Shown: piece after piece, positions 20,595 through 43,964 of the stretch
Position numbering within the stretch: the first letter of the stretch is position 1
How the letters are laid out: each line of letters starts with the position of its first letter
From: a virus
IMG/VR virus record: IMGVR_UViG_3300020470_000036
Coordinates: 1-44,042 of that record
DNA: 44,042 nucleotides
Direction: 5' to 3' (one strand)
The notes under the pieces: generated by a model
What the model was told of the DNA's origin: nothing
The model's database searches: none
The model's input: only the letters and a program-made list of their open reading frames with translations
Translations under genes and position numbers: made by a program

Positions 20595-21051
20595 TGAGGG
20601 TGTAGAATATATAAAGCAATACTACCCCATTCCTGATGTGACATGGGAGGATGTCATCGAGAAACTCGATGAGGATGTATTAGATGGTGATTGGGGCTAT
20701 TCTAATACAAAATATCCAGATAAAATCCTTCCAGTTATTGTAGGTACTGGCCGATATGTGCCAGAGTCTATACTACCGATATGGGAAGCAGTTGTAGAGG
20801 ATGTAGGTATGAATTGTATGCATACCTATATTGGTTTTTCCAAGTTTTCTGCAACGTTAGGCCGACATAATGATGATATGGATGTCTTCATTGTGCAAGC
20901 AATAGGAGAAACATCATATAAGTTTGATTCTGGAGTATGTCATACATTAAAACCAGGTGATGCTATATTCATACCAGCGTATGTTTATCACCACCCTTTT
21001 AGTCATGGACCTAGAGTTTCACTAAGTTTTTCAAATGACGGAAGAAGTTAA
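20584..21051 (+). CDS. Cupin-fold protein, possible Fe(II) oxygenase
   Basis: A 155-residue protein whose second half is cupin-like: LGRHNDDMDVFIVQAIGET with H95 and D97, then LKPGDAIFIPAYVYHHPFSHG with H136/H137, and a closing strand RVSLSFS. An H-x-D…H set fits JmjC-like (Cupin_4-type) oxygenases, but the domain is small and lacks the usual helical N-terminal half, so a non-enzymatic cupin is possible. The N-terminal third (YIKQYYPIPDVTWEDVIEKL) is helical. It overlaps talC by 11 nt and the next small gene by 17 nt. Substrate unknown. A larger related-looking protein lies at 40771. Confidence 0.7.
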   Translation: MLSDEGVEYIKQYYPIPDVTWEDVIEKLDEDVLDGDWGYSNTKYPDKILPVIVGTGRYVPESILPIWEAVVEDVGMNCMHTYIGFSKFSATLGRHNDDMDVFIVQAIGETSYKFDSGVCHTLKPGDAIFIPAYVYHHPFSHGPRVSLSFSNDGRS

Positions 21052-30334: not shown

Positions 30335-31141
30335 GTGGCTACTAAATTTGGAATGTCAGGTAGAACAAATCCTCTTACTGCTGGACTAGGTGGCATGGGA
30401 TCTGGTGCTGGTGGCGGTGGAGGAGGCGGTGGTGTCCCTATAGGCACAACCCAAGGTAATCCTGCTTCCAATGCAGTACAGATAAGAGATTCAGGACAGA
30501 GTGCAGAAGGAGCATATTGGATTAGTTTACCTAATGTAGGTACAACACAGATATATTGTGCACCATCTAGTAGTTTTGCTGGTGGTGGGTGGATGCTTGC
30601 ATGGAAGTGTACAAGAGGTAGTAGATTCCCATTTGGATCTAGTTACTGGACATCGACTAATACATATAGGGAGACAGATATGTCTCGGAGTGATTCAGAT
30701 GCTAAGTATCACACCTATAACTATTACTCATGTTCAGATGTATTAGCAATTTTCCCTGACCTTAATAACGGTGGCCAAGCATCAGGATATGGTGGTGGTT
30801 GGAGTTGGTATCAACCAAATATTAATATGACAATGAGGTCAAGACTACAGTCACAGTATCAGATCAGTGGTAACCCACGTGGTCAGAATATGTGGCAAGG
30901 ATCTGGATTCTCATCACAAGGTGGTCATCAGTGGTATGGTTTCTACTATACATTTGGTGGACACTCTACTAATACTAGATGGGGATTTGGTTGGAATAAC
31001 GAGGGTGGTCCTGGATCTAATGATGTTATATCTGGTATAGGACTACAACGTAGTGGTACCTCAGCAGGTGACCATATATACTGTTGTCAAAACTATACTG
31101 GTGTCAACAGGACAATACGTGCGGAGATTTGGGTAAGATGA
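30335..31141 (+). CDS. Fibrinogen-like receptor-binding protein candidate
   Basis: A 268-residue protein with GTG start preceded by AGGAGGT. Residues 1-20 are an attachment segment, followed by an eight-Gly hinge (AGGGGGGGGVPIG). After this, GAYWISLPNVGTTQIYCAP and GGGWMLAWKCTRG reproduce the opening of a fibrinogen-related domain (G-x-Y-x-I…Q-x-Y-C…GGGW). The rest is rich in aromatic residues, Ser and Gly (SYWTSTNTYRETDMSRSDSD, GGWSWYQPNINM), with a C-terminal GDHIYCCQNYTGVNRTIRAEIWVR-like end containing a Cys pair. Fibrinogen-like domains usually bind sugars or acetyl groups, so it may recognise host lipopolysaccharide. The match is by pattern and would need a profile search. Confidence 0.65.
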   Translation: MATKFGMSGRTNPLTAGLGGMGSGAGGGGGGGGVPIGTTQGNPASNAVQIRDSGQSAEGAYWISLPNVGTTQIYCAPSSSFAGGGWMLAWKCTRGSRFPFGSSYWTSTNTYRETDMSRSDSDAKYHTYNYYSCSDVLAIFPDLNNGGQASGYGGGWSWYQPNINMTMRSRLQSQYQISGNPRGQNMWQGSGFSSQGGHQWYGFYYTFGGHSTNTRWGFGWNNEGGPGSNDVISGIGLQRSGTSAGDHIYCCQNYTGVNRTIRAEIWVR

Positions 31142-31431: not shown

Positions 31432-32241
31432 ATGGCACAGTTAAATCTGGGAGCTATTAAAGATTTAGGAGGAGTTGGTGGATTCACCTTCGCTTCAGGA
31501 GGTATCACAGCTAACGGTAGTTTGACTGTAACTGACATTCAGATTGATGGTACCATTGCTGGATCTTCAGGATATGTACTTCCAAACCCTTCAGGTAATA
31601 CCGATCAATATATTTCTAACAACGGATCTGCTCTAACATGGGGTAGTATTTCAGTTGCATCAGGAGTCAGATCTATGCAGGTCTGGACTTCTAATGGTAC
31701 GTGGTATAAACCATCTGGTGTTGGTACTATAATGGTAACCGTAACAGGTGCAGGTGGAGGAGGTTCAGGATATAGTGAAGGTGGCGGTTCTGGGGGTACT
31801 GCTCAGAGACAGATTGATGTTACTAATGTTTCGTCAGTATCAGTCACAGTAGGTAATCCAGGTGGTGGAACAAATTATAGTGGATGTGGTGGTGGAGGTA
31901 ATTCTTCTTCATTCGGATCATATTGTTCAGCATCGGGAGGATATGGTGCCAACTGTCGTCAGGGACGTGCAGGTGGTATCGGAGGCAACGGTTCAGGTGG
32001 ATCGTTAAATGTCTATGGAGGTGGTGGTGAAGGTCACGGATCACACTACATGTATGGTTCTCATTCATGTGGTTCTAGTTACTGGGGTGGTAGTCAACCA
32101 TCAAGTCACCAGCAAAACAACTACGCTCACAGACATCAATCACACTGTGCTTGGGGTGCAGGTGGAAATGGATGCCAGTTCTATGGTCGAGGTGCTAGAG
32201 GACGTGAAGGTGTCGTCGTAGTCCATGAGTTCTACGGATAA
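31432..32241 (+). CDS. Glycine-rich tail-tip adhesin, copy 1
   Basis: A 269-residue protein in two parts. Residues 1-80 are a virion-attachment domain with short strands (LNLGAIKDLGGVGGF, SLTVTDIQIDGTIAGS) shared with the next two genes. After RSMQVWTSNGTWYKP begins a glycine-rich domain: TGAGGGGSGYSEGGGSGG, NPGGGTNYSGCGGGGN, GGYGANCRQGRAGGIGGNG and a C-terminal GARGREGVVVVHEFYG. Such motifs resemble the polyglycine-helix adhesins at T-even fibre tips (gp38 type), where loops between Gly runs set receptor specificity. The segment about 200-255 (YMYGSHSCGSSYWGG, CAWGAGGNGCQFYGR) is the part that differs most from the other copies. First of three tandem paralogues. Confidence 0.78.
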   Translation: MAQLNLGAIKDLGGVGGFTFASGGITANGSLTVTDIQIDGTIAGSSGYVLPNPSGNTDQYISNNGSALTWGSISVASGVRSMQVWTSNGTWYKPSGVGTIMVTVTGAGGGGSGYSEGGGSGGTAQRQIDVTNVSSVSVTVGNPGGGTNYSGCGGGGNSSSFGSYCSASGGYGANCRQGRAGGIGGNGSGGSLNVYGGGGEGHGSHYMYGSHSCGSSYWGGSQPSSHQQNNYAHRHQSHCAWGAGGNGCQFYGRGARGREGVVVVHEFYG

Positions 32242-32244
32242 ATA
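32237..32244 (+). promoter_or_regulatory. Late promoter before adhesin 2
   Basis: GATAAATA overlaps the adhesin 1 stop and lies 19 nt before the next ATG. Confidence 0.55.
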
Positions 32245-32263
32245 AAACAGGATTAGTTGACCT

Positions 32264-33073
32264 ATGTCAAAACTTAAAGTATCTGCTATTAAAGATTTAA
32301 CTGGGGCTAATGGATTCATGCTTGCTGGTGGTACAATCACTGCAACCACGACTCTATCAGTCTCAGATATTACTATTAATGGCACCATTACAGGAGGATC
32401 AACATACATTGTCCCTGCTCAAGGGGGTAATGAAGGTAAAGCACTGAGATCTACTGGTAGTGGATTTGCTTGGTCGTCAGTCTCTGCTGGGTCAGGAATA
32501 AGATCCATGCAAGTCTGGACATCAAATGGTACTTGGAATAAACCTGCTGATGTAGGATCTATCATCGTCACTGTTATAGGTGCTGGTGGTGGAGGATCAG
32601 GATATAATGAATCAGGTGGTTCAGGAGGAATGTCAGAAAGAGTTATTGACGTTTCTAATGTATCTTCGGTATCTGTCACGATAGGAAATCCAGGAGGTGG
32701 TACTAGTTACTCAGGATGTGGTGGTAATGGAAACTCATCATCATTCGGTAGTTATTGCAGTGCATCTGGAGGATACGGTGCAAACTGTCGTCAAGGTAGA
32801 GCAGGAGGTATAGGTGGTAATGGTTCAGGTGGTAACCTAAACGTCTACGGAGGTGGAGGTGCTGGTCATGGATCATATTGGGCATGGGGATGTCACCAAG
32901 GTGGTACCTCATTCATGGGTGGTTCACAACCTTCAAGTCACCAGCAATGTGATTATGCTCATAGACACCAATCCCACGCAGCGTGGGGTGCTGGCGGTAA
33001 CGGTGCTAGACACGGTTGTCGTGGAGCAAGAGGTCGTGAAGGTGTCGTTGTTGTTCAGGAGTTCTACGGATGA
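32264..33073 (+). CDS. Glycine-rich tail-tip adhesin, copy 2
   Basis: A 269-residue paralogue of adhesin 1 with the same attachment part (KLKVSAIKDLTGANGF, LSVSDITINGTITGG) and glycine-rich part (IGAGGGGSGYNESGGSGG, GGYGANCRQGRAGGIGGNG, GARGREGVVVVQEFYG). The variable segment here reads YWAWGCHQGGTSFMGG, QQCDYAHRHQSH and ARHGCRGARG, clearly changed from copy 1, while the Gly-rich core is almost identical in protein. The DNA of the shared core differs at many third codon positions, so the copies are not recent duplicates. It has its own late promoter and overlaps copy 3 by 4 nt. Possibly an alternative receptor binder or a partner in a mixed tip. Confidence 0.78.
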   Translation: MSKLKVSAIKDLTGANGFMLAGGTITATTTLSVSDITINGTITGGSTYIVPAQGGNEGKALRSTGSGFAWSSVSAGSGIRSMQVWTSNGTWNKPADVGSIIVTVIGAGGGGSGYNESGGSGGMSERVIDVSNVSSVSVTIGNPGGGTSYSGCGGNGNSSSFGSYCSASGGYGANCRQGRAGGIGGNGSGGNLNVYGGGGAGHGSYWAWGCHQGGTSFMGGSQPSSHQQCDYAHRHQSHAAWGAGGNGARHGCRGARGREGVVVVQEFYG

Positions 33074-33891
33074 GTGTTCTTAAAGTCACAGGTTGTACAG
33101 ATATATCTGGTCTTGGAGGATTTGATCTCTCCAGTGGATCAATTACCTGTAATGGAACCTTACGAGTACAAAATATAAACATTAACGGTAGTATATCAGG
33201 GTCATCTCCATATAATATACCGTCATTCTCTGGTCAGTCTGGTAAATTCTTAAGTACCAACGGAACCAACCTAGTCTGGTCAAGTGAAATACAATCAGGT
33301 GGAGGTGGTGCTGGTTTCAGATCTATGCAGGTCTGGACATCTAACGGCACATGGAATAAACCATCTGGTGTCGGATCCATTCAGGTACAAGTAGTTGGTG
33401 CTGGTGGCGGGGGATCAGGGTATGGTGAGTCAGGAGGAGCAGGTGGTTTCTCCCAACGAGTCATTGATGTAAGTAATATTTCATCTGTATCAGTCACTGT
33501 GGGTAACCCAGGTGGTGGTACAAACTATTCAGGATGTGGTGGTGGAGGTAATTCCTCATCATTTGGTAACTATTGTTCTGCTGGTGGTGGATATGGTGCA
33601 AACTGTAGACAAGGTAGAGCAGGTGGAATAGGTGGAAATGGTTCAGGTGGTAACCTCAATGTGTATGGAGGTGGAGGTAATGGATATGGAGACTGGTCAA
33701 CGTATGCTTCCCACTCAGGTGGTAGATCATACTTTGGAGGATCTCAACCAGCATCTCACCAGCAGAATGATTATGCACATAGACACCAGTCACACTGTGC
33801 TTGGGGTGCAGGTGGTAATGGATCTCAATTCTTCTCAAGAGGAGCAAGAGGTCGTGAAGGTGTGGTCGTAGTTTTTGAGTACTACGGTTAA
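33070..33891 (+). CDS. Glycine-rich tail-tip adhesin, copy 3
   Basis: A 273-residue third paralogue. Attachment part: VLKVTGCTDISGLGGFDLSS and LRVQNININGSISGSSPYN. A Gly-rich insert (SGGGGAGFRSMQVWTSNG) adds a few residues compared with copies 1 and 2. The core VGAGGGGSGYGESGGAGG, NPGGGTNYSGCGGGGN and GGYGANCRQGRAGGIGGNG is conserved. The variable segment is DWSTYASHSGGRSYFGG with QQNDYAHRHQSHCAWGA and SQFFSRGARG. The end is GREGVVVVFEYYG. It shares translation with copy 2 through an ATGA overlap and is followed by a perfect late promoter. Same proposed role, host receptor recognition at the fibre tip. Confidence 0.78.
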   Translation: MSVLKVTGCTDISGLGGFDLSSGSITCNGTLRVQNININGSISGSSPYNIPSFSGQSGKFLSTNGTNLVWSSEIQSGGGGAGFRSMQVWTSNGTWNKPSGVGSIQVQVVGAGGGGSGYGESGGAGGFSQRVIDVSNISSVSVTVGNPGGGTNYSGCGGGGNSSSFGNYCSAGGGYGANCRQGRAGGIGGNGSGGNLNVYGGGGNGYGDWSTYASHSGGRSYFGGSQPASHQQNDYAHRHQSHCAWGAGGNGSQFFSRGARGREGVVVVFEYYG

Positions 33892-33893
33892 CT

Positions 33894-33901
33894 TATAAAT
33901 A
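33894..33901 (+). promoter_or_regulatory. Late promoter after the adhesins
   Basis: A perfect TATAAATA, followed by CAAGGAG before the ATG at 33925. It may also feed the halogenase-oxygenase island downstream, since no other clear promoter was seen before 42778. Confidence 0.65.
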
Positions 33902-33924
33902 AATCAAGGAGTTAAATTACTATC

Positions 33925-34350
33925 ATGGCTAAATGGGCAATAGTTGATAAAGTTACAGGTGCTCTTACTGACATTATCGACGAAGCAGACAAATTTGAAA
34001 TTTATGAAGGTGCTGACGCTAACCATAAGTGGTGTGAAGTGCCAGATGATACTACCTATGAACATTCTATGATTAATGGTGTGGTAGTACACAGATCAGA
34101 TAATGAAGATTTAAGAGAAGATGCAGTAGTTGAAAGAATTATTGCTTACGGTAACGTAGGTGAGCAATTAGATATGATGTATAGAGATAATATCAATGGT
34201 ACTACTGAGTGGAAGGATCATGTTGCTTCTGTTAAGGCAGGTACAACTAAACCATCTACTATTCCTGCATTTGTCCAAGATCCTAAGAAGGTACAACTAG
34301 AGGGTAGAGCAGCGTGGGATCCCTGGGTTGACAACTGGACACCACCATAG
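33925..34350 (+). CDS. Probable fibre-assembly or small structural protein
   Basis: A 141-residue acidic protein. The diagnostic section is IIAYGNVGEQLDMMYRDNINGTTEWKDH split around residues 71-98, plus VASVKAGTTKP. This A-Y-x-x-x-x-Q-L-D-M-x-x-x-D pattern is widespread in phage proteins encoded next to tail fibres and is found in XkdW-like and tail-fibre-associated proteins. The N-terminal part (MAKWAIVDKVTGALTDIID) is a small beta domain and the C-terminus is Trp/Pro-rich (AWDPWVDNWTPP). No enzyme motif was found. It lies directly after the adhesins, behind a perfect late promoter, so a chaperone or accessory role in fibre assembly is likely, though unproven. Confidence 0.65.
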   Translation: MAKWAIVDKVTGALTDIIDEADKFEIYEGADANHKWCEVPDDTTYEHSMINGVVVHRSDNEDLREDAVVERIIAYGNVGEQLDMMYRDNINGTTEWKDHVASVKAGTTKPSTIPAFVQDPKKVQLEGRAAWDPWVDNWTPP

Positions 34351-34376: not shown

Positions 34377-35822
34377 ATGAAAATCGTTATTGTTGGAGGT
34401 GGCAGTGCTGGATGGATGACTGCTGCCACATTGGTAAAAGCATATCCAGAATGGGACATAACTCTCTACGAAGACGAGAGAACACCGACTGTGGGAGTAG
34501 GGGAATCTACTACACAGTTTTTTGCTAAGTGGATACATTTCCTCGATGTTAAAGATGAGGAGTGGATGCCAGCGTGTGATGCAACATATAAAATTAGTGT
34601 AAGATTCTGTGATTTCCATAAGAAAGGGGATGATCCTTGGCAGTATCCATTTGCATTGCCAAGAGAGGTAGGTCTACCCGATCAGTGGTGGTATAATGCA
34701 GACAAGTATGGATGGAAATATGGACAGTTTGCTAGAGATTTCTTTATAGCAGCAGAATGTGCTGAACAGAATAAACTACCAGTAAATAGACCAGAGTTTG
34801 ATTTAAAGGTACACTCAGGGTATCAGATGGATGCTGTTAAGTTTGCAGCATGGTTAAGAGATGACTACTGTAAACCTAGAGGTGTCAAGCATAAGATTGA
34901 GAGAGTTGATCCAGATAAGTTACCAGAAGCAGATTTATATTTCGATTGCACAGGGTTTGCATGTCTATTAGATAAGAGTGAGTGGTTAGATTACAGTGAC
35001 TTCTTACCTAACAACCACGCCTGGGTGACTAGGATAGGGTATCAGGATATGGAGAACCAGATGGTACCATATACCAACTGCACTGCATTAAATAATGGTT
35101 GGGTGTGGAATGTCCCATTGATTCATAGAATGGGTACAGGTTATGTGTTCTCTGATAAGTTTACTACACCAGAGGAAGCAAGAGATGAGTTTAGAAATTA
35201 CCTAGCAGATAATGTAGAGTCAGATGTAGGAGCATACACTGATAATATGTTCCGTCTGTTAAAGTATAAGTGTGGAAGGAAGAAGGAACCTTGGAATGGT
35301 AAGGTTATATCTATTGGACTATCCTCTGGTTTTATTGAACCAGTAGAGTCTAATGGTTTACTATCAGTCCATCAGATGCTATTATTATTCCTCAGAGTAA
35401 TGAAGGATAGGACTGTAATCACTCAATTTATGAGAGATACATTTAATAATAGATCTAATAATGCATTCGATGGTTTCACATCATTTGTTGCATTACATTA
35501 TGCTATGACACAACGTGATGATAGTGATTACTGGAAGCATGTGGGTACTATTAGATATCCATATGAGCAGTTGACTGCTACCGTTCAAGAAACATATCTT
35601 TCAGAGTCTGCTAACTTCAGTAACTGGACATGGGATGAGCAAGCGATGTGGTGTGTAATGGCAGGTCATGGATGGAATCCATTTAATAAGGTTATACATT
35701 CAGAGATTGATTACTTTGGAGGACTAGATGGTGATGAACCACCAAAACCACCTGAGTGGGAAGGACTAGATAAGTTACCAAGTCCATATGAATATTATAA
35801 GAGAGGTATGTATGCAAATTGA
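34377..35822 (+). CDS. Flavin-dependent halogenase 1 (tryptophan halogenase family)
   Basis: A 481-residue FAD-dependent halogenase related to PrnA and to cyanophage enzymes such as VirX1. FAD-binding GGGSAGWM lies near residues 7-14 and GVGESTTQFF at 40-49. The catalytic lysine, which carries the hypohalous intermediate in this family, is K72 (DATYKISVRFCDF). The signature W-x-W-x-I-P appears as GWVWNVPL, with Val for Ile. SSGFIEPVESNG supplies the Glu-containing active-site segment. The C-terminal part is helical with WTWDEQAMWCVMAGHGW. All key residues appear intact. It needs reduced flavin; no flavin reductase gene was seen, so a host reductase is presumed. The substrate is unknown. It overlaps halogenase 2 by 11 nt. 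Confidence 0.88.
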   Translation: MKIVIVGGGSAGWMTAATLVKAYPEWDITLYEDERTPTVGVGESTTQFFAKWIHFLDVKDEEWMPACDATYKISVRFCDFHKKGDDPWQYPFALPREVGLPDQWWYNADKYGWKYGQFARDFFIAAECAEQNKLPVNRPEFDLKVHSGYQMDAVKFAAWLRDDYCKPRGVKHKIERVDPDKLPEADLYFDCTGFACLLDKSEWLDYSDFLPNNHAWVTRIGYQDMENQMVPYTNCTALNNGWVWNVPLIHRMGTGYVFSDKFTTPEEARDEFRNYLADNVESDVGAYTDNMFRLLKYKCGRKKEPWNGKVISIGLSSGFIEPVESNGLLSVHQMLLLFLRVMKDRTVITQFMRDTFNNRSNNAFDGFTSFVALHYAMTQRDDSDYWKHVGTIRYPYEQLTATVQETYLSESANFSNWTWDEQAMWCVMAGHGWNPFNKVIHSEIDYFGGLDGDEPPKPPEWEGLDKLPSPYEYYKRGMYAN

Positions 35823-37416
35823 ATCCATTGTTATAGTTGGTGGTGGTACTAGTGGATGGATGACTGCTGCATTACTATCAAAAGAGCATCCAGATATGGA
35901 GATAGCATTGATAGAATCAGAGAAGGTACCCACCATAGGTGTTGGTGAGTCTACTATCTCACAGTTTAATAGATTCACAAAGAGATTAGAGTTAAAGGAT
36001 GAGGACTGGATGCCTTATTGTAATGCCACTTACAAAACATCCATTGCCTTTAAAAATTTTCGGGAAGGAAAAGGAGAGAGGTTTCAATATCCATTTGGTA
36101 GGTTTGATAGTGATTCAAATATTGATTTCCATGATGATATAAGGAGATTCTTTGAGTTACAGGCAGCGTATGGTGAAGAGTTATATCCACCAGAGCAGTT
36201 TGCTAGATTTAATAATAAGAATACATACACAGCAGACTATGGTAGGATACCTGAAGGTGATATACCTGGATCAAACTGGGATTTTGCTGATGATACTGCA
36301 TATCATTTTAATGCTGATCTCTTTGGTAACTATCTAAGAGATAATATTGCTGTACCTAATGGAGTACATCATCTTAAGGGTGATGTAGAAAATGTAATTA
36401 AGAGACCTGATGGTAGTATTGAGCAGATATGTACCACTCAGGGTGCTACTATTGGTGCTGATATATTCATTGATTGCACAGGTTTTAGATCACTACTATT
36501 AGAGCAACACATGGGTAGTGAGTTTGTATCCTATGCACCTATGTTGTTTAATGATAGAGCATTAACAACACACATACCATACATTGATAAAGAGAAACAG
36601 TTGGTACCTTATACTGATTGTGTTGCTATGGATTGTGGGTGGTCATATCATATACCACTGTGGAATAATATAGGGTCAGGTTATGTTTACTCTAGTAAAT
36701 ATATTTCTGATGAGGATGCAGAGGCAGAGTATCGTGCTCTATTAAGTGATACATATAGTCCTGAAATTGCTCAGGAATGCCAGTTGATGCCTATAAAGAT
36801 AAAGCATGGTAAACATAAACAAGCATGGGTTAAGAATGTTATAGGTATTGGTCTAGCATTTGGATTCTTAGAACCATTAGAGTCTACTGGTTTAATGACT
36901 ACACATGCTAATATATTAGTATTGTCTGAGTTATTCTCACAACGTAAGGGATTAGCAACTAAGTTTGATAGAGATACATATAATTTTGCTGCTGATAAAA
37001 TCATAGAGTCTATGAAAAACTTCATAGCAATGCACTATGCTCTATCATCACGACAAGATACACCATACTGGGTAGATTGTACTGAGACTATTGAATTTGA
37101 TATCCCCTTGTGCTCTAATCCAAAATCAACTATAATGTCATTAAATGATTACATTACATTCATTGACCAATTAGAGCAAGATATGTATAATACAGAGGTG
37201 ATAGGTGCTGGCGTATGTTATATTGCTGCTGGTATGAATATACAACCTATTAGTCCACATCTATTCAAGGAGAAATCATCTCCTGATAGAGATGAATTAA
37301 TTAAAGAGATGCATGGAATGTATCAACAAGAGAGAGAATCTATGGAGAAATGGATACTAACTCAACCAACACATTACCAATACTTGAGGGATAATATACA
37401 TGTGGAATCCGTTTAA
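35812..37416 (+). CDS. Flavin-dependent halogenase 2 (tryptophan halogenase family)
   Basis: A 534-residue paralogue of the preceding halogenase. The ATG at 35812 follows GAGAGGT and overlaps the end of halogenase 1; a start at 35788 would only add eight residues. Motifs are VGGGTSGWM (9-17), TIGVGESTISQF (41-52), catalytic K75 (NATYKTSIAFKNF) and AFGFLEPLESTG. The W-x-W-x-I-P site reads GWSYHIPL, so the second Trp is Tyr. A roughly 60-residue insert near 105-155 (YGEELYPPEQFARFNNKN) is absent or shorter in halogenase 1, which may change substrate access. The changed signature could mean altered chemistry, for instance different suppression of mono-oxygenation, or another substrate. Its stop lies 17 nt inside the next gene. 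Confidence 0.86.
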   Translation: MQIESIVIVGGGTSGWMTAALLSKEHPDMEIALIESEKVPTIGVGESTISQFNRFTKRLELKDEDWMPYCNATYKTSIAFKNFREGKGERFQYPFGRFDSDSNIDFHDDIRRFFELQAAYGEELYPPEQFARFNNKNTYTADYGRIPEGDIPGSNWDFADDTAYHFNADLFGNYLRDNIAVPNGVHHLKGDVENVIKRPDGSIEQICTTQGATIGADIFIDCTGFRSLLLEQHMGSEFVSYAPMLFNDRALTTHIPYIDKEKQLVPYTDCVAMDCGWSYHIPLWNNIGSGYVYSSKYISDEDAEAEYRALLSDTYSPEIAQECQLMPIKIKHGKHKQAWVKNVIGIGLAFGFLEPLESTGLMTTHANILVLSELFSQRKGLATKFDRDTYNFAADKIIESMKNFIAMHYALSSRQDTPYWVDCTETIEFDIPLCSNPKSTIMSLNDYITFIDQLEQDMYNTEVIGAGVCYIAAGMNIQPISPHLFKEKSSPDRDELIKEMHGMYQQERESMEKWILTQPTHYQYLRDNIHVESV

Positions 37417-38278
37417 AAAGAAAAAACCTTGGGTAAGATGGTACTCAGTAGATAGAGGAGTAGCAGAATTATCACCATGGTTCCCTGCTAAACAACTTAA
37501 GAGACCTTGGAGAATGAATGCTCTTAAGGAGCAAGGTGGAAGGAATAGAGAAGAGAAGAAATGTCCTGCACTTAAAGCAGCACGAATGTGGGATAGATTA
37601 ACTCATGAGATGCTTGGTGAACGCATGGATACTCCAGAAGGATTTACTCATGCTGTTACATGTCCTGCTATGAGTACTGTTATGGACAGTGGATATATTT
37701 TGCCATGTCCTGCTGATGTATTAATACAGACTCATGGTGATGGACATAATTTTGAGTGGAGATCACAGACACTATTCAGTAGTATTGATGCTTTCATTAA
37801 AGCACATCCACCAGAGCAGACTACAGGAGTACGTGAGACATTCCAGAGTAAATCATTAGAATGGACTATTAAATTAGAATTACCTTGGAGGGTGCAAGCA
37901 CATCCTGATGTAGTATTTTTACAGATGCCTATTGCATATCATAAGGAGGATAGATTTAGTGTACCAACAGGTATAGTAGATCCAAAGTATTCTTATGAGA
38001 TCAACTTACAATTATTCTGGCATAAAATAGATAAGGGTGAGTATTTACTTGAGGCAGGTACACCATTATGTCAATGGATACCAATGCACAGAGATTTCGT
38101 TAGTATGCAAGGATGGGATATAGTTATTGAGACAGCAAATCAAGAAGACCAAAATAATAATGAGATAATGGATTATCAACGCAAGAAACAATTTCTTGAG
38201 TCATCTACATTAAATGAGAGAATTGAAAATCATGCTACTGTATTAGCAATGAATAAGAATAAGGAGAGATTTGAATAA
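37400..38278 (+). CDS. Unknown protein of the halogenase island, paralogue 1
   Basis: A 292-residue protein that begins MWNPFKKKKPWVRWYS and is paralogous to the next gene. Conserved features of the pair are HAVTCPAMSTVMDSGYILPCPAD (about 83-110, with two Cys-Pro steps), WTIKLELPWRVQAHPDVVF, GIVDPKYSYEINLQLFWH and AGTPLCQWIPM, followed by a charged helical tail. Strands and conserved Trp, Cys and His suggest a beta-sandwich or double-stranded beta-helix core that could bind an aromatic or metal-linked ligand. No signal peptide, no membrane span. I recognise no named family with confidence. It overlaps halogenase 2 by 17 nt and so is probably made with it; it may be substrate, carrier or partner of the halogenases. 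Confidence 0.8.
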   Translation: MWNPFKKKKPWVRWYSVDRGVAELSPWFPAKQLKRPWRMNALKEQGGRNREEKKCPALKAARMWDRLTHEMLGERMDTPEGFTHAVTCPAMSTVMDSGYILPCPADVLIQTHGDGHNFEWRSQTLFSSIDAFIKAHPPEQTTGVRETFQSKSLEWTIKLELPWRVQAHPDVVFLQMPIAYHKEDRFSVPTGIVDPKYSYEINLQLFWHKIDKGEYLLEAGTPLCQWIPMHRDFVSMQGWDIVIETANQEDQNNNEIMDYQRKKQFLESSTLNERIENHATVLAMNKNKERFE

Positions 38279-39156
38279 TGTGGAATCCATTCAAGAAGAA
38301 AAAACCTTGGGTTAGATTCTATTCTACACATCCTGGTGTTGCAGAATTATATCCTTGGTTACCTGCTAGTAAGATAGAGAGGAAGTGGAGAAGGGATGCT
38401 CTTAAGCAAGAGGGTAATAGGACAACTAAATGTCCTGCTGAAAAACTGAGGAGATTATGGGAGCACCAGAGTGCTCTATTAAATGGTAGAGAAGATGGTC
38501 TGGATGGCATGTGGAATCATGCTGTTACATGCCCTGCATTAACACAGTTAATGGATACAGGATGGGTACTACAATGTCCAGCAGATATTCTCATACATAT
38601 GGATGGTGAGGGTGATACCTTTGAATGGATATCACAGTTACAATTTGATGTAGGAGGTCCAACATATGTTAAAGGACATATAGAGGAGCAGACCAGAGGT
38701 ATGAGAGAGTTGGTAACACCTGGTAGACCTGTAATGAAACAGACTATCAAACTGGAGTTACCTTGGAGAGTCATGGCACATCCTGACTTAATCTTCATAC
38801 AAATACCATTACCATACTATGATGAAGATAGATATAGTATACCTATGGGTATAGTGGATCCTCAAATTACATTTGAGGTGAATATACAATTATTCTGGCA
38901 TGCACTTGATAATGGTGAGTATATGATTAAAGCAGGTACTCCATTTTGTCAGTGGATCCCCATGAGCAGGAAACTGTTGCAAAGAGGGGGATATGATGTT
39001 ATAATTGAGGATGCCAACCAGCATGACCTTGATAATAATAAGATCATGGACTACAATAGGTACAATAAGTTTACTGAGACAACTACCTTGAAAGATAGGA
39101 TAGAATATCAGGCACAGGTACTTAAACTAAATAAAAACAACGAGAGGTTTAATTAA
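38278..39156 (+). CDS. Unknown protein of the halogenase island, paralogue 2
   Basis: A 292-residue paralogue of the preceding gene and of identical length. The first 13 residues (MWNPFKKKKPWVR) are the same, and the motif order is kept: HAVTCPALTQLMDTGWVLQCPAD, TIKLELPWRVMAHPDLIF, GIVDPQITFEVNIQLFWH and AGTPFCQWIPM. Outside these blocks the two differ widely, for example around 40-80 (RRLWEHQSALLNGRE) and 120-150. The last codons end NKNNERFN, like NKNKERFE in the paralogue. The overlap (A of ATG shared with the TAA stop) indicates coupling. Two halogenases followed by two of these proteins suggests that each unknown protein works with one halogenase. This is inference from gene count and order. 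Confidence 0.8.
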   Translation: MWNPFKKKKPWVRFYSTHPGVAELYPWLPASKIERKWRRDALKQEGNRTTKCPAEKLRRLWEHQSALLNGREDGLDGMWNHAVTCPALTQLMDTGWVLQCPADILIHMDGEGDTFEWISQLQFDVGGPTYVKGHIEEQTRGMRELVTPGRPVMKQTIKLELPWRVMAHPDLIFIQIPLPYYDEDRYSIPMGIVDPQITFEVNIQLFWHALDNGEYMIKAGTPFCQWIPMSRKLLQRGGYDVIIEDANQHDLDNNKIMDYNRYNKFTETTTLKDRIEYQAQVLKLNKNNERFN

Positions 39157-39507
39157 ATGTCTGAAGAAGTATTAGAAGTAGATCTGGCGAAAGAGGCAGG
39201 TATACAGACTGAAGAAGAGAAGACCGAATCAATCCCTGAGATTGAAGGTCTTATTACTTTCGATCAGTTGGTAATGAACTTCCTACAACAACATGCTACT
39301 GCTAAAGAGGAGTACATGAAACTTCAAGAAGCATTAGATAATATGCACTATACTAGTACGATCACTAAGATCTCACTAGAAGAGTTGCAGACTAAAAAAG
39401 ATCTATTGAATAAACTCAGTGGTGCTGTTGAGGCACTAGCATTATATAAGAAGCACGTTGATCCCAACTGCACTGAAAGAGAGTTTGTATTCAATGACGA
39501 GGACTAA
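39157..39507 (+). CDS. Small acidic coiled-coil protein
   Basis: A 116-residue acidic protein beginning MSEEVLEVDLAKEAGIQTE. The first 40 residues look disordered and Glu-rich. The rest is helical with heptad-like spacing: LITFDQLVMNFLQQHATAKE, EYMKLQEALDNM, and LEELQTKKDLLNKLSGAVEA. It ends DPNCTEREFVFNDED, with one Cys. It begins right after the paralogue 2 stop and overlaps the next oxygenase by 14 nt. No family was recognised. As the only non-enzyme between the unknown pair and the oxygenase run, it could act as an adaptor or scaffold, but there is no direct evidence. Confidence 0.65.
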   Translation: MSEEVLEVDLAKEAGIQTEEEKTESIPEIEGLITFDQLVMNFLQQHATAKEEYMKLQEALDNMHYTSTITKISLEELQTKKDLLNKLSGAVEALALYKKHVDPNCTEREFVFNDED

Positions 39508-40168
39508 TTTATTTCCTACACCATTATGGGAGGAAGAGGATTGTGGAGTAGATCTACAACCTCTTGTTGACTTCTGTTATCATGTCAAGAAGGAAGATCC
39601 TGAAGGTAGGAGAGCATCAAATGGTGGTGGAGGATGGCAGTCTAGTGATTTTAGAGTACCATTTCTTTTAACTACACCATTAAAAGAATTACATGATAGA
39701 ATAATACAACAGGCATATATGTCTATGGATGACTGGGGGTTTAGTAATTATTCCCTGCATATGTCTAACATGTGGATTAATATCAATAATAAAAAACATT
39801 TTAACTATACTCACACACATCCAGGTTCATTATTGTCTGGAGTTTTTTATGCTAAGGTACCAGAGTGTTGCTGTGGTGATCTTAGAATCATAAGAGATTT
39901 GCATGAGCAGAATCTTAAGGAGTCAGGTATGGTTAATCAAAACTTAGATAGGTGGGAGAATCCTGCTAACAGTGATGAGCATTTTGTCACTCCTAAAGAA
40001 AATAAGTTAGCAATATTTCCAGCATGGTTAGCACATAGTGTTGACCCTAGTAGTAGTGATAATGATAGAATATCAATATCATTTAACATTTACGCATTCT
40101 CTGATTTTTTACGTGATGACCAGGTTTATCCAACGAGACAATCTACTAACACCCGCCTATCTCTCTAG
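39494..40168 (+). CDS. 2OG-Fe(II) oxygenase (TIGR02466-like), island copy 1
   Basis: A 224-residue oxygenase starting MTRTNLFPTPLWEEED, the F-P-T-P-L-W opening being common in the TIGR02466 group; an upstream start at 39458 lies in the preceding gene. Metal-binding residues are H107 and H109 (YTHTHPGSLLSGVFYAKVP, the family hallmark), distal H181 (FPAWLAHSVDPSSS) and R192 (DRISISFNIY). A Cys-rich turn (VPECCCGDLR) follows the first motif. It is the most canonical member of the run. Members of this group are found in many marine phages with unknown substrates; a role in nucleotide or protein modification has been suggested. It overlaps the next oxygenase by 53 nt, an unusually long overlap for this window. 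Confidence 0.85.
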   Translation: MTRTNLFPTPLWEEEDCGVDLQPLVDFCYHVKKEDPEGRRASNGGGGWQSSDFRVPFLLTTPLKELHDRIIQQAYMSMDDWGFSNYSLHMSNMWININNKKHFNYTHTHPGSLLSGVFYAKVPECCCGDLRIIRDLHEQNLKESGMVNQNLDRWENPANSDEHFVTPKENKLAIFPAWLAHSVDPSSSDNDRISISFNIYAFSDFLRDDQVYPTRQSTNTRLSL

Positions 40169-40829
40169 GTTACAAGATATGGTATCAGGGATGAATGGAT
40201 TCCCTTGGTATTTTATATCAACAGATGTTAGTTACCCACCAGGTGATAATTTTATATTTGGTGATGTAGCATTAATGGATTGCCCTGTAGAGGAGGCAAC
40301 AACAGGATTTACTCATGTATTATTAGATCAGAATGGTCAAGAGAGTCCTTGGTGTCATCATTTTAATGCACTAATAGATCATGTTAAAGATCAGTTCCCA
40401 TTCCCTGTTAAGATGTTGAGGGTGAGACTATCATTACTATTGAATAATGGTAAGGATCATCATAATGCAGCACACACTGACCATGAGGATCCACATACTA
40501 CTGGGTTATTCTATTTTGAAACTGCTACAGGATGTACACATCTATTTGAACAGTTTGATGATCCTGAATATGGTAGTGTTGATGAGAGATGGTTAAGAGG
40601 TAAGAATATGATGCTTAACAAACAATATACTGTAGATCGTTTAGTTGAACCAGTAGCAAATAAATTAATATTATTTCCAGGAAACCAATACCACGCATCA
40701 CAAACACCAACAGGTGATTGTAAGTTCCGTGTTACATGTAATTTTAATGTGATACCTCTTAACGAGAAACATGACATATTTGACCCCACTACTTACGAAG
40801 ATCTCGGCAACGAAGCAGTGGTTCATTGA
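40116..40829 (+). CDS. 2OG-Fe(II) oxygenase-like protein, island copy 2
   Basis: A 237-residue protein starting MTRFIQRDNLLTPAYLSRL at 40116; the start at 40038 would lie deep inside the preceding gene. Fe ligands are H120 and D122 (NAAHTDHEDPH), distal H193 (FPGNQYHASQTPTG) and R205 for 2OG (KFRVTCNFNV). The central GLFYFETATGCTHLFEQF is a typical beta-helix strand pair. An N-terminal element (GFPWYFISTDVSYPPG) gives a Trp-rich entrance. Sequence similarity to the other oxygenases in the run is low outside the motif, so it is not a simple duplicate. Similar proteins are common in cyanophages; the substrate is unknown. Overlaps the next gene by 59 nt. Confidence 0.78.
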   Translation: MTRFIQRDNLLTPAYLSRLQDMVSGMNGFPWYFISTDVSYPPGDNFIFGDVALMDCPVEEATTGFTHVLLDQNGQESPWCHHFNALIDHVKDQFPFPVKMLRVRLSLLLNNGKDHHNAAHTDHEDPHTTGLFYFETATGCTHLFEQFDDPEYGSVDERWLRGKNMMLNKQYTVDRLVEPVANKLILFPGNQYHASQTPTGDCKFRVTCNFNVIPLNEKHDIFDPTTYEDLGNEAVVH

Positions 40830-41499
40830 TGATACACCTCAACACTTTGAAGGTGTAGTTGAGGATCCACATCAATTTGCTACATGGGATGAGTTAGAAC
40901 AATGTATGAACTCACCAGAGTTATTTGATATCAAGTTAATTGATAAAGATAATGGTGACTTTATACATTTACCATTATATGAGAGATGTTGGTCAAGACC
41001 AACACCTAGTATACATGATATAATGGGAGCATTTGGTGATGGTCACACATGTATTATAGATAATTTTGATCTATTTAATCAAGAGAAGCAAGATATATTA
41101 TCACAGGTTGAAAAATATTTCACAGGTAAATGTGCACTGCATTTATATGCAGGATTAGAAGAGCATAGATCATTTAATATACATGAGGATCCTGCTAGTA
41201 ATTTTATTATACAAATAGAAGGAGAAACACCTTGGAAGGTGTATAATAATAGATGTAGTAATATAATAGATGACACTGAGCATAATATATCTCAATACCC
41301 TGAGTTAGATGTTGCTATTGATGTCATATTAAAACCAGGTGATATGCTATACATACCAGCAAGATCATATCATCAAGCACAACCAACTGGTAAGAGACTA
41401 TCATGTAGTATACCAATGCAGCACATGATACCACACTTAAAAACTATTGACAGAGAGTATGTCCCTATCCCCCGTACATCTAAAACCTCAAATACATAG
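40771..41499 (+). CDS. JmjC/Cupin_4-like oxygenase, island copy 3
   Basis: A 242-residue protein of JmjC-like cupin type (the Cupin_4 and ribosomal oxygenase branch). H138 and D140 lie in SFNIHEDPASNFIIQIEGE, followed by the typical TPWKVYNN strand. The distal ligand H201 is in LKPGDMLYIPARSYHQAQPTG. The N-terminal 110 residues contain a helix-rich part and CIIDNFDLFNQEKQDI, also usual for this class. JmjC-type enzymes of this branch mostly hydroxylate protein residues such as His or Arg, which favours a protein target, though this is family-level inference. The start at 40771 lies within the previous gene; the next ATG downstream is out of frame. Confidence 0.78.
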   Translation: MTYLTPLLTKISATKQWFIDDTPQHFEGVVEDPHQFATWDELEQCMNSPELFDIKLIDKDNGDFIHLPLYERCWSRPTPSIHDIMGAFGDGHTCIIDNFDLFNQEKQDILSQVEKYFTGKCALHLYAGLEEHRSFNIHEDPASNFIIQIEGETPWKVYNNRCSNIIDDTEHNISQYPELDVAIDVILKPGDMLYIPARSYHQAQPTGKRLSCSIPMQHMIPHLKTIDREYVPIPRTSKTSNT

Positions 41500-42073
41500 A
41501 GCACATTACGATTTTGACTTTGATAGTATGAGAAGTCATATTGATGAGCGTGTAGATGCTGCTGCACCTCAGATGGGAGACAATACACCAGAGAAAGGTG
41601 GTGGTGTAACAACTGTTGTACATTGTCTCACGGATCCACCACATAACTGGAAGATGTTTGACGAATTCAAACTTTGGTTGTATGATAGGATTGATGAAGT
41701 ATGGGAGGACTATCAACTCCAACCCATGATGAGACAGATAAGTGAGTCATGGATTAATAAACATCCACCAGGTGCATGGACATCAGAGCATCATCATCAA
41801 TGTATACAGGTTGCAGTAGCAGTCTATCTAAATGTACCAGAGAATAGTGGTAGGTTCTTAGTTAAAGATCCAACAGAGATCTATAAGAGACAAGAACCAT
41901 TAGACTATCATTATTATGAGAGAGGTGGAGAATGGGAACCAATAGAGATAACAACAGGTGATGTATTATTCTTTCCAGGATGGTTATATCATAAGACTGA
42001 GGTTAATAAATCTAAGGAAGATAGATATGTCATGTCATTGAATATAAGAGGGGCACACATGTACCATGATTAA
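41459..42073 (+). CDS. 2OG-Fe(II) oxygenase (TIGR02466-like), island copy 4
   Basis: A 204-residue oxygenase; the start at 41459 (MSLSPVHLKPQIHRAHYDF) has a purine-rich leader, while an alternative TTG at 41447 would add four residues. The metal region is TSEHHHQCIQVAVAVYLNVP with H111 and H113, distal H178 lies in FPGWLYHKTEVN, and R189 follows in EDRYVMSLNI. PENSGRFLVKDP is the usual strand after the first ligands. It has a longer acidic and aromatic middle part (DYHYYERGGEWEP). Overlap with the preceding gene is 41 nt and with the following gene 8 nt. Substrate unknown. Confidence 0.82.
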   Translation: MSLSPVHLKPQIHRAHYDFDFDSMRSHIDERVDAAAPQMGDNTPEKGGGVTTVVHCLTDPPHNWKMFDEFKLWLYDRIDEVWEDYQLQPMMRQISESWINKHPPGAWTSEHHHQCIQVAVAVYLNVPENSGRFLVKDPTEIYKRQEPLDYHYYERGGEWEPIEITTGDVLFFPGWLYHKTEVNKSKEDRYVMSLNIRGAHMYHD

Positions 42074-42758
42074 AGTATTTGATACTAAATTAATATCCCC
42101 TGAAATGTTTTGGGAGGTAGTATACCTACCATATAAATTCACTAGGACAGATGATGTTAACCCAGAAGGTAACCCATCAGATGCACAGGCAACAATGTAC
42201 TGGACACACCAGTTATATAATTTTTGTCCTGTTGAGGATCCAGACTATCATCAGAATGCAGGGTTAGAAGCAAGTAATAATAAAATATATCTTGATGTAT
42301 TAAATTATTTGGAAGCAGTTTGCCCTGATTTGCCACCTCGTGCCAATCTATACGCATCATATGTAAATACCCTTAAGTTTGGTGATATGCCAGGCATACA
42401 TGTTGATGCACCATATTTTGTTGAAGATAACATGACAGTATTAGTATATCTTAATGCTGAGTGGATGCCTAACTGGGGTGGTGAGACTATATTCTATGAC
42501 CACAACTTAGATGCAGCGAAGGTTGTATCATTAAAACCAGGTCGTGTTGTTATGTTTGATGGTCGCATACCACACACAGGCAGAGCACCTAATCGTGTAA
42601 CACCTTACAATCGCTACATCCTAGCATACAAGTATATGACACCAGAAACTAGACAGAAATTATTTGTCGATCATGAGATGAATGGGATGCCACCAGTCAT
42701 GGATCATGGCATCGTTGGTTTTGATCCCAACACAGTTAAGGAATTAGACTTGACATGA
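42066..42758 (+). CDS. 2OG-Fe(II) oxygenase, prolyl-4-hydroxylase type, island copy 5
   Basis: A 230-residue oxygenase with the textbook P4H pattern: H112 and D114 (GIHVDAPYFVEDN), MTVLVYLNAEWMPNWGGETIF-like strands, distal H170 (GRIPHTGRAPNR) and R183 (NRYILAYKYM). The G-G-E-T-x-F stretch is classical for P4H-like hydroxylases. Typical substrates of the wider family are proline residues in proteins, though phage members may act otherwise. It has a long helical N-terminus (YWTHQLYNFCPVEDPD). This is the most conventional hydroxylase of the island and the best candidate for protein modification. Its stop overlaps the next start as ATGA. Confidence 0.87.
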   Translation: MIKVFDTKLISPEMFWEVVYLPYKFTRTDDVNPEGNPSDAQATMYWTHQLYNFCPVEDPDYHQNAGLEASNNKIYLDVLNYLEAVCPDLPPRANLYASYVNTLKFGDMPGIHVDAPYFVEDNMTVLVYLNAEWMPNWGGETIFYDHNLDAAKVVSLKPGRVVMFDGRIPHTGRAPNRVTPYNRYILAYKYMTPETRQKLFVDHEMNGMPPVMDHGIVGFDPNTVKELDLT

Positions 42759-42991
42759 GCAGAAACCTCGATATGCTAATAAATAGTTCTGCTTCAGATC
42801 TTTTAGGGGAAGGATCCAACATGTACATGTCACTTAAAACTGCTATTTTAAATCACGATCAAAAAGAATTACTTAAGAAAGCATTATTCTTTTATCAAAA
42901 AGATGCCTGTGAGCATCAAGGAGACTTATCAGAAAATGATAGAGGTTTAATTGAATCTATCATAGATACTTTGCACATGAAAAACATATGA
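42755..42991 (+). CDS. Small helical protein of unknown function
   Basis: A 78-residue protein starting MSRNLDMLINSSASDLLG if the ATGA overlap start at 42755 is used. A second in-frame ATG at 42821 has a better ribosome-binding sequence (AGGGGAAGGA) and lies downstream of a late promoter motif at 42778; a late transcript would give the shorter 56-residue form. The remainder is helical and charged: LKTAILNHDQKELLKKALFF, YQKDACEHQGDLSENDRG, LIESIIDTLHM. No family was recognised. It lies between two oxygenases and overlaps the second by 4 nt. Confidence 0.6.
   Translation: MSRNLDMLINSSASDLLGEGSNMYMSLKTAILNHDQKELLKKALFFYQKDACEHQGDLSENDRGLIESIIDTLHMKNI
42778..42785 (+). promoter_or_regulatory. 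Late promoter motif inside the oxygenase island
   Basis: AATAAATA matches NATAAATA and lies 35 nt before the ATG at 42821. A TTGACA (42750-42755) with TATGCT (42772-42777) at a 16-nt spacing lies directly upstream, so both promoter types may overlap here. It would drive the last three genes. Confidence 0.4.
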
Positions 42992-43623
42992 ATGAACCAC
43001 AGATTGTCGCTCTATTTTCACAACCACTCTATATTAATATGGAGAAACTGCCTCAATCAGTAATTGATGCAGTTGCTAATACTGAGCATGAAGTACTTGA
43101 ATGTAATGACTCATTATATGCTAAGAATGGGTTAATGTCTAAGGATAGACAATGGTTATCCACACAACAAGAAACAAGAGAAATAGTAGAGAGACATCTG
43201 GATCATTATGTGTATAATACACTAGGGATTGCACGTGAGCGATGTCAATTAACACATCAATCATCATGGTGCAATATGCACACGCCTGGTCATTGTGGTG
43301 CTGGTCACTGTCATACTAATAGTATGTTTAGTGGAGTATTATATACTCAAATACCAGAGAATAGTGGCACAATAAGATTTCATATACCTAATATGTTTCC
43401 AACATATGTAACACAAACTGTGTTACCAGATATAAGAGAATCTAACATCTATAATATGAGAGAAGCAGAGATTGTACCACAAGAGGGTATGATTATATGT
43501 TTCCCCTCTCATTTGAATCATACTATTGGTGTACATGAGGGAGTTGGTAAACGATTCTCTATGGCATTCAATTATTTCCTTAAGGGTGCGTTTGGTTATG
43601 ATGACAACGCATTAACATTATGA
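42988..43623 (+). CDS. 2OG-Fe(II) oxygenase (TIGR02466-like), island copy 6
   Basis: A 211-residue oxygenase. The first metal region is unusually rich in Cys and His: WCNMHTPGHCGAGHCHTNSM, with H107 and H109 the likely aligned positions, followed by the family strand SGVLYTQIPENSGTIRF. The distal region is CFPSHLNHTIGVHEG (H175 or H178) and the 2OG residue is R189 (GKRFSMAFNYF). The Cys/His cluster before the active site (C95, C103, C108) is not seen in the other copies and might bind a second metal. It overlaps both neighbours by 4 nt. Substrate unknown. Confidence 0.82.
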   Translation: MNEPQIVALFSQPLYINMEKLPQSVIDAVANTEHEVLECNDSLYAKNGLMSKDRQWLSTQQETREIVERHLDHYVYNTLGIARERCQLTHQSSWCNMHTPGHCGAGHCHTNSMFSGVLYTQIPENSGTIRFHIPNMFPTYVTQTVLPDIRESNIYNMREAEIVPQEGMIICFPSHLNHTIGVHEGVGKRFSMAFNYFLKGAFGYDDNALTL

Positions 43624-43964
43624 CAATTCCTATATTCTTAGCGGAGGCAATACCATTGGAAGTGAGAAACATTCTTAAATCATTAAAAAGAGGAATGCCA
43701 GTTAGGTTAAAGAGTGGAGAAGAAGGCACTATCAATTTTATTGGTAATGAATATATAACTGTTAGCATGAATAGGAGAGAAGATCCTAATTCAATGCATG
43801 GTTATAAAGAGACAAATGTTTTAGTATATCCCCATGAGTGGGATGATATGGAAATAGAGGATGAGCATTTTTATAATCATAAGAATTATAAAGGTGTGAT
43901 AAGAGATCATCCTGGAAATGAAGATTTGCCCTCTGATATTACTGGAAATGAGAACGCAGAATAA
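43620..43964 (+). CDS. Conserved small phage protein with SH3-like core
   Basis: A 114-residue acidic protein starting MTIPIFLAEAIPLEVRNIL. After a helix (RNILKSLKRGMPVRLKSG) comes a small barrel-like part: VRLKSGEEGTINFIGNEYIT and VSMNRREDPNSM, then TNVLVYPHEWDDMEIED. This resembles SH3-like folds in shape. The end is a flexible acidic tail (GNEDLPSDITGNENAE). I recognise it as a type often seen in cyanomyoviruses but cannot name a family. It overlaps the last oxygenase by 4 nt and the partial membrane gene by 17 nt. No catalytic residues were seen. Confidence 0.68.
   Translation: MTIPIFLAEAIPLEVRNILKSLKRGMPVRLKSGEEGTINFIGNEYITVSMNRREDPNSMHGYKETNVLVYPHEWDDMEIEDEHFYNHKNYKGVIRDHPGNEDLPSDITGNENAE

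Follow-up and report, generated by a model that had tools for sequence, protein, structure and literature searches.

Gene content of the locus

The viral record IMGVR_UViG_3300020470_000036 (44,042 bases, analysed over its full length and called the window here) is that of a T4-like cyanophage whose relatives include P-TIM40, P-RSM6 and S-WAM1. Between 31432 and 43964 it carries 17 plus-strand genes, which run from three Gly-rich tail-fibre adhesins, through a tail-fibre-chaperone-like gene and an enzyme island, to a phrog_8681 protein (Table 1). The island encodes two flavin-dependent halogenases (halA and halB), two DUF6065-like proteins (U1 and U2), a small acidic protein, five 2-oxoglutarate (2OG)-Fe(II) oxygenases (ox1 to ox5) and one JmjC protein. 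Gene families were assigned with Pfam, PHROGs and NCBIfam profiles, and folds with AlphaFold models and Foldseek.

An original prediction, made from the letters of the sequence, had described 34377–43623 as a tailoring island, and profile matches recovered every gene that it listed there. Its count of six Fe(II)/2OG- or JmjC-type oxygenases also holds, as five 2OG-Fe(II) enzymes and one JmjC_2 protein, with the qualification that the members of family PF13759 carry HxH in place of HxD. The predicted boundaries needed revision. The genes do overlap, but starts suggested by homologues shorten halB, ox1, ox2 and ox3 (Table 1), so the overlaps are only 1–59 nt, and the functional unit starts upstream of 34377, as the adhesins and chaperone-like gene (31432–34350) belong to it. 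The phrog_8681 gene at its other end (43620–43964) probably belongs to it as well.

Table 1. Genes of the adhesin-linked block in the window
Feature	Position	Strand	Evidence
Adhesin 1, Gly-rich tail-fibre tip (phrog_863 family)	31432–32241	+	Gly_rich_2 above cut-off; 70% identity to adhesins 2 and 3
Adhesin 2, Gly-rich tail-fibre tip, proposed substrate	32264–33073	+	AlphaFold predicted local distance difference test (pLDDT) score 84; Foldseek match Pam3 7ypx
Adhesin 3, Gly-rich tail-fibre tip	33070–33891	+	Gly_rich_2 4e-8; phrog_863 3.4e-57
Tail-fibre-chaperone-like small protein (label xkdW)	33925–34350	+	phrog_1787 3.5e-19; position kept in 49/49 distinct loci
halA, flavin-dependent halogenase	34377–35822	+	PF04820 3.6e-86; motifs; best PDB match VirX1 5.5e-83
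halB, VirX1 orthologue (open reading frame opens at 35788)	35812–37416	+	PDB 6qgm 2.9e-146, full length; PF04820 3.9e-106
U1, DUF6065-like, dUTPase (beta-clip) fold	37400–38278	+	AlphaFold pLDDT 93.4; Foldseek dUTPase 3ecy
U2, tandem paralogue of U1	38278–39156	+	53.6% identity to U1
Small acidic protein, isoelectric point 4.4	39157–39507	+	Position after U kept in most loci
ox1, 2OG-Fe(II) oxygenase, PF13759/phrog_81	39494–40168	+	1.6e-22; HxH replaces HxD
ox2, 2OG-Fe(II) oxygenase	40116–40829	+	phrog_274 3.4e-29; PF13759 just under cut-off; HTD...H
JmjC_2 oxygenase, YcfD/NO66/MINA type	40771–41499	+	PF08007 7.1e-20; PDB NO66/MINA 4e-7; HED...H
ox3, 2OG-Fe(II) oxygenase, PF13759	41459–42073	+	5.7e-14
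ox4, 2OG-Fe(II) oxygenase, P4H-like PF13640	42066–42758	+	PF13640 3e-8; HVD...H
Small protein, kept position	42755–42991	+	phrog_712 2e-6; recurs in close loci
ox5, 2OG-Fe(II) oxygenase, PF13759	42988–43623	+	1.2e-17
phrog_8681 protein, last of block	43620–43964	+	5.8e-40; terminal position kept in many loci

Co-inheritance of the cassette with one fibre tip

The cassette is a fixed block that travels with one type of tip, its order and strand conserved across genera. We searched IMG/VR separately from U, adhesin and halogenase sequences and mapped the loci with family profiles. Of 248 adhesin loci the best 80 were mapped, and 68 of these had at least 4 kb of downstream sequence. A halogenase is present in all 68, an oxygenase in 66, JmjC in 60 and U in 53. 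After dereplication, each of the 49 distinct loci has a chaperone-like gene, then, within 1 kb of the last adhesin, a halogenase, and after it oxygenases, all on the same strand; JmjC is found in 46 of the 49, U in 38 and halA in about half. When halogenase was the starting point, the adhesin was present in 43 of the 58 loci with enough upstream sequence. The same block order is seen in Syn9, P-TIM40, S-CREM1, S-RIM44 and Sf-FP1 and, without U, in S-WAM1 and P-RSM6.

These comparisons uphold the proposal that the genes form one system: where random order and independent occurrence in related phages would have spoken against it, the opposite was found. Chance clustering is rejected because the same order is repeated in 49 distinct phage loci, and independent gene shuffling is rejected by the conserved order and co-occurrence. 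The accompanying remark that cyanophages contain single halogenases and scattered oxygenases is correct but incomplete, as the whole cassette is present in Syn9/Syn10, P-TIM40, S-CREM1 and S-RIM44. In the literature surveyed (most subscription journals and preprints were outside its scope), we found no earlier mention of the cassette in these phages, no link between cyanophage dioxygenases and fibre modification, and no paper on the FlmC family name.

Among 50,697 phage records, the adhesin family occurs in 20, all of which also carry the cassette. Six more records have a VirX1-type halogenase without the adhesin, including S-H35, S-B64, Sf-CH11 and Sf-CH1a. The halogenase stands alone in S-H35, where it adjoins replication genes, and in S-B64; in Sf-CH11 and Sf-CH1a it lies beside another tip plus oxygenases. 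Comparing 20/20 with 26 of at least 438 cyanophage records (those with a gp32 match) gives 1e-29 on the assumption of independent records, a value that shows scale only because the records are not independent.

Two S-RIM44 genomes provide a natural comparison between isolates with and without the cassette. KX349291 and KX349295 share 95–98% identity across nearly all of 50–87 kb (91.6% in one stretch) and 96.6% from gp13 onward. Between these two stretches, KX349291 has a 25.6-kb block that combines the fibre and three adhesins with the chaperone-like gene, the two halogenases, U, JmjC and oxygenases; the 17.5-kb block of KX349295 instead holds a homologous fibre (51–58% protein identity), one oxygenase, a small protein and a tip protein of a different kind. 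The Syn1 locus is of the KX349295-like type. Sf-CH1b, which has the same host strain as Sf-FP1, carries a third tip type with no halogenase in the locus, and the Sf-phages of host strain WH8102 display three different tip/enzyme arrangements. It follows from the S-RIM44, Syn1 and Sf-CH1b arrangements that tip and enzymes change together.

Other tips also have such enzymes. Four loci (L236, L238, L243 and L250) that do not have the window's adhesin family contain halogenases, two or three tandem copies of U and many oxygenases beside a phrog_18345/28766 fibre family. The sets of halogenases, U and oxygenases beside these other fibre-tip families (in L236, L243 and L250) support a role in tip tailoring.

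Enzymes, U proteins and adhesins

Both halogenases have the flavin motif GxGxxG (GGGSAGW in halA and GGGTSGW in halB), the catalytic Lys motif [ND]ATYK and the F[IL]EPxESxG motif, and the Lys (K79 of VirX1) and Glu columns are invariant across 20 aligned halogenase sequences. The W-x-[WY]-x-[IV]P motif reads WVWNVP in halA and WSYHIP, with the second Trp replaced, in halB. The closest characterized relative of halB is VirX1 of Syn10 (PDB 6QGM), whose sequence is that of Syn9 gp42; in Syn9 and Syn10 this gene is the second of the block's halogenases. halB is an orthologue, 46% identical to the Syn9 copy, and shares its catalytic Lys and FxEPxES motif, but has W-x-Y-x-IP where VirX1 has W-x-W-x-IP. 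According to a review (PMC8407142), VirX1 prefers iodide, works on many different aromatic substrates and has an active site that is large and accessible; among these halogenases only the VirX1 orthologue has been assayed for halogenating activity. It was studied as a lone biocatalyst, whereas here it is a member of a conserved, adhesin-linked block of 10–15 genes; no natural substrate for it is reported in the literature surveyed, the primary VirX1 paper being outside its scope.

A cyanophage halogenase has previously been ascribed, as PrnA, to antibiotic protection (PMC2984593). The T4-GC 212 'PrnA' halogenases (S-PM2, P-SSM2, Syn1) belong, like halB, to the cyanomyovirus Trp_halogenase family and sometimes lie near a 2OG oxygenase, but are only about 26–30% identical to halB and are single genes in other contexts, without an adjoining adhesin of the phrog_863 family. 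halB aligns with VirX1 end to end, as far as residue 530, while its local alignments to the Trp halogenases 8fov and 5lv9 end near residue 425; alignments to PrnA and 6ul2 are weaker, yet continue beyond that point. The alignments hint that the substrate of halB differs from free tryptophan, and we rejected a free-tryptophan pyrrolnitrin pathway as first choice. Six loci (L079, L081, L094, L102, L104 and L106) encode a second pair of halogenases, on the other strand and several kb further downstream than the cassette.

Could the cassette instead make or decorate a diffusible compound, such as an antibiotic-like, signalling or anti-grazer molecule, with the adhesin neighbourhood serving as an insertion hot spot? 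Halogenases are classically natural-product enzymes, protection by a pyrrolnitrin-like antibiotic has been proposed (PMC2984593; PMC9964418), VirX1 accepts small aromatics in vitro (PMC8407142) and hyperplastic regions are known in cyanomyoviruses (PMC2984593). We nevertheless consider this explanation unlikely. Pfam, PHROGs and NCBIfam revealed no scaffold-building enzyme (non-ribosomal peptide synthetase, polyketide synthase, ligase or Trp oxidase) among the block genes, where carrier and exporter families were likewise not found, and the similarity of halB to 8fov and 5lv9 stops at about residue 425 while that to VirX1 runs to the end. Perfect pairing with one adhesin family would also be unexpected for a hot-spot passenger. 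A diffusible compound, one of three candidate targets in the original prediction, is thus disfavoured, given that the block has no recognised gene for making a scaffold, for a ligase or for export.

A second possibility is that the target belongs to the host, as a protein, surface polymer or receptor modified during infection, for example against superinfection or trapping of progeny by debris, and that the enzymes match the fibre through a shared receptor. JmjC_2 proteins hydroxylate ribosomal proteins in other organisms, and the best PDB matches of the JmjC_2 protein in the window are the protein hydroxylases NO66 and MINA. A host target would also lead one to expect that the cassette is inherited together with the adsorption module. 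Against this, the enzymes are probably cytoplasmic, with no signal or export gene recognised, and the Sf-phages have three tip/enzyme arrangements on the single host strain WH8102. We regard a host target as rather improbable.

A motif scan found the iron ligands HxD/E...H in ox2, ox4 and the JmjC protein. In the PF13759 group the pattern is replaced by HTH in ox1, HHH in ox3 and HCH in ox5, and all three match PF13759 above the cut-off despite the HxH (family PF13759/TIGR02466, phage-rich). Iron ligation and activity in this HxH family are of interest in their own right. Roles proposed earlier for the many cyanomyovirus 2OG oxygenases are in nitrogen sensing, in DNA repair, in lipid metabolism and in general modification of proteins (PMC3037559, PMC9964418). 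PHROGs-derived labels such as 'DNA endonuclease V', 'minor coat protein' and 'ferrochelatase' sit on 2OG oxygenases of these kinds (ox2, ox4 and those of many phages); the labels look wrong, and 'DNA endonuclease V' for ox2 is misleading.

U1 and U2, both phrog_7084, are 53.6% identical over 295 columns. The top Foldseek matches of the U1 model are dUTPases (3ecy: E 1.1e-4, probability 1.0, template-modelling score 0.64 by target). In the U family, the Asp of GxxDP is kept in 70 of 74 members and an AGTPL-x-Q stretch is conserved, both of which recall dUTPase motifs. DUF6065 (PF19541) matches 10 of the 74 members, at best with 2e-6, U1 of the window not being one of them. A search of PDB sequences with U alone returned nothing, and the family profile gave weak dUTPase matches only. 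An ordinary dUTPase was set aside as first choice, and U probably acts as an oligomeric scaffold or adaptor, not as a nucleotidase. U is single in the other mapped cyanophage-type loci, present twice in the window, and found in two or three tandem copies with halogenases and oxygenases beside the other fibre families (L236, L243 and L250). DUF6065 is present in 1 of 292 genomes of the sampled phylum. The cellular relatives of U lie on three contigs, and at least two of these resemble cyanophage sequence that ended up among bacterial or archaeal contigs. One 188-kb contig in an assembly of Nonlabens xiamenensis (NZ_RMVE01000006.1, L108) carries a P-TIM40-like cyanophage block, and a contig of a Euryarchaeota metagenome-assembled genome (NHGE01000052.1, L107) has the same cassette. 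Both look like cyanophage sequence placed in the wrong assemblies.

For adhesin 2, Foldseek ranks the Pam3 fibre 7ypx first (E 2.6e-8), followed by the Bxb1 mycobacteriophage tail tip and the ALK/LTK Gly-rich domain; this match came through the fold, as the adhesin profile found nothing useful among PDB sequences. In Pam3, receptor binding is proposed for a Gly-rich domain, which the chaperone gp25 folds (PMC9608196). The window resembles Pam3 gp24/gp25 in encoding a small chaperone-like protein alongside a Gly-rich receptor-binding domain. The Gly-rich adhesins probably cap the long tail fibres, and the phrog_1787 protein, which has no Pfam match, may be a chaperone by analogy to gp25, any homology between the two being suggested by position and analogy only. 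Pam3 gp24 has also been reported to resemble the distal adhesin gp38 (PMC9608196). The gp38 of S16/T2-type phages is likewise a Gly-rich tip adhesin encoded beside the fibre, but gp38 is absent from the Foldseek list of adhesin 2, and the window's type has two to three tandem adhesin paralogues. In a set of 48 adhesins, at least 85% keep Y149, F161, Y164, N174, H179 and H202. These residues are chemically modifiable, although their conservation may be structural alone.

Possible tailoring of the fibre tip

How might a halogenase and oxygenase cassette serve a fibre tip? The interpretation that we favour, and consider reasonably likely, is that the block is a tail-tip tailoring operon that halogenates and hydroxylates adhesin side chains before or during assembly. 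The adhesins, the chaperone-like protein, the halogenases and the six Fe(II) oxygenases would be made from what appears to be one transcription unit. While the adhesins fold or assemble, the 2OG-Fe(II) and JmjC_2 oxygenases could hydroxylate their side chains, and the VirX1-like halogenases, with their wide open active site, could add Br, I or Cl to Tyr, Trp or His, perhaps with U as an oligomeric scaffold or adaptor. The finished tip may then have improved receptor binding, or withstand proteases and salt. We infer this role from the co-inheritance, the layout suggesting co-transcription, the match of the modelled adhesin to the Pam3 receptor-binding fibre, enzyme types that take proteins, as do the JmjC_2 relatives NO66 and MINA, or large substrates, as does VirX1, and the lack of recognised scaffold-building enzymes. 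Among the candidate targets of the original prediction, virion proteins, in the form of the Gly-rich tip adhesins, are favoured, since the cassette comes and goes with the tip, even among isolates of a single species.

Several points weigh against this interpretation. Adjacency alone is no proof of substrate, and a fibre or host target may covary with the tip instead. Taking the best 80 of 248 adhesin loci favours close relatives, and since loci are related by descent, the counts are not independent. VirX1-like halogenases also occur away from tips (S-H35, L223, L249 and L253); because such lone halogenases exist, not every phage halogenase is engaged in tip tailoring. The HxH of the PF13759 oxygenases makes their activity uncertain, and no flavin reductase was recognised among the block genes. 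Finally, across 28 loci no aromatic or His position of the adhesin covaried with the presence of halA at p<0.002.

The block swapped in S-RIM44 includes fibre genes, and the target could therefore be the fibre. More generally, the enzymes may modify some other part of the virion, for instance the giant fibre exchanged along with the adhesins, and oxygenases, though few, accompany other tips too (Syn1, Sf-CH11). However, the two S-RIM44 fibres are still homologous, while adhesin presence tracks the cassette exactly, which makes this alternative quite improbable in our estimation. The main text of the S-CREM1 virion proteomics study names neither an adhesin nor a halogenase among its 14 proteins.

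Halogenation and hydroxylation together on a ribosomal product have a likeness in styelin D and in the tailoring of ribosomally synthesized and post-translationally modified peptides (RiPPs). Styelin D, a marine peptide, contains bromo-Trp, DOPA (3,4-dihydroxyphenylalanine), hydroxy-Lys and dihydroxy-Arg, and these modifications are reported to improve its activity at high salt, with the share of bromination unclear (PMC8659048). Styelin D is, however, an animal peptide, whereas tip tailoring would act on a virion adhesin without a recognised leader, protease or exporter; families of RiPP leader peptides, proteases and exporters were not recognised among the genes of 34377–43964. The small acidic protein is a possible RiPP precursor.

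Tailoring of virion proteins by neighbouring genes is an already known category, and linkage to one adhesin family would offer a concrete target for VirX1-type halogenases and their companion oxygenases. We see an about even chance that such loci are swappable modules of a tip plus its finishing enzymes, in cyanophages and in phages with other fibres, and that halogenation and hydroxylation of receptor-binding proteins is a step of virion maturation and the natural role of VirX1. If tip tailoring takes place, abundant ocean viruses would recognise cells partly through halogenated and hydroxylated side chains, the chemistry of virus–receptor contact would extend past the twenty amino acids, and predictions of host range from adhesin sequence alone would miss this chemistry.

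Regulatory signals in the window give little guidance. The T4-type late promoter motif CTAAATA has seven matches, a count that is uninformative because it is below the shuffled mean, and a promoter scan gave a count equal to the shuffled expectation. No terminator is listed on the plus strand between the adhesins and the halogenase, which lends weak support to read-through from one into the other. Just upstream of the adhesins, at 30335–31141, lies a phrog_1325 protein with no Pfam match; the same family is matched by a fibre-like protein adjoining the enzymes in L236. Outside the island, the window encodes a further PF13759 oxygenase (1938–2627) and a small JmjC_2 protein (20584–21051).

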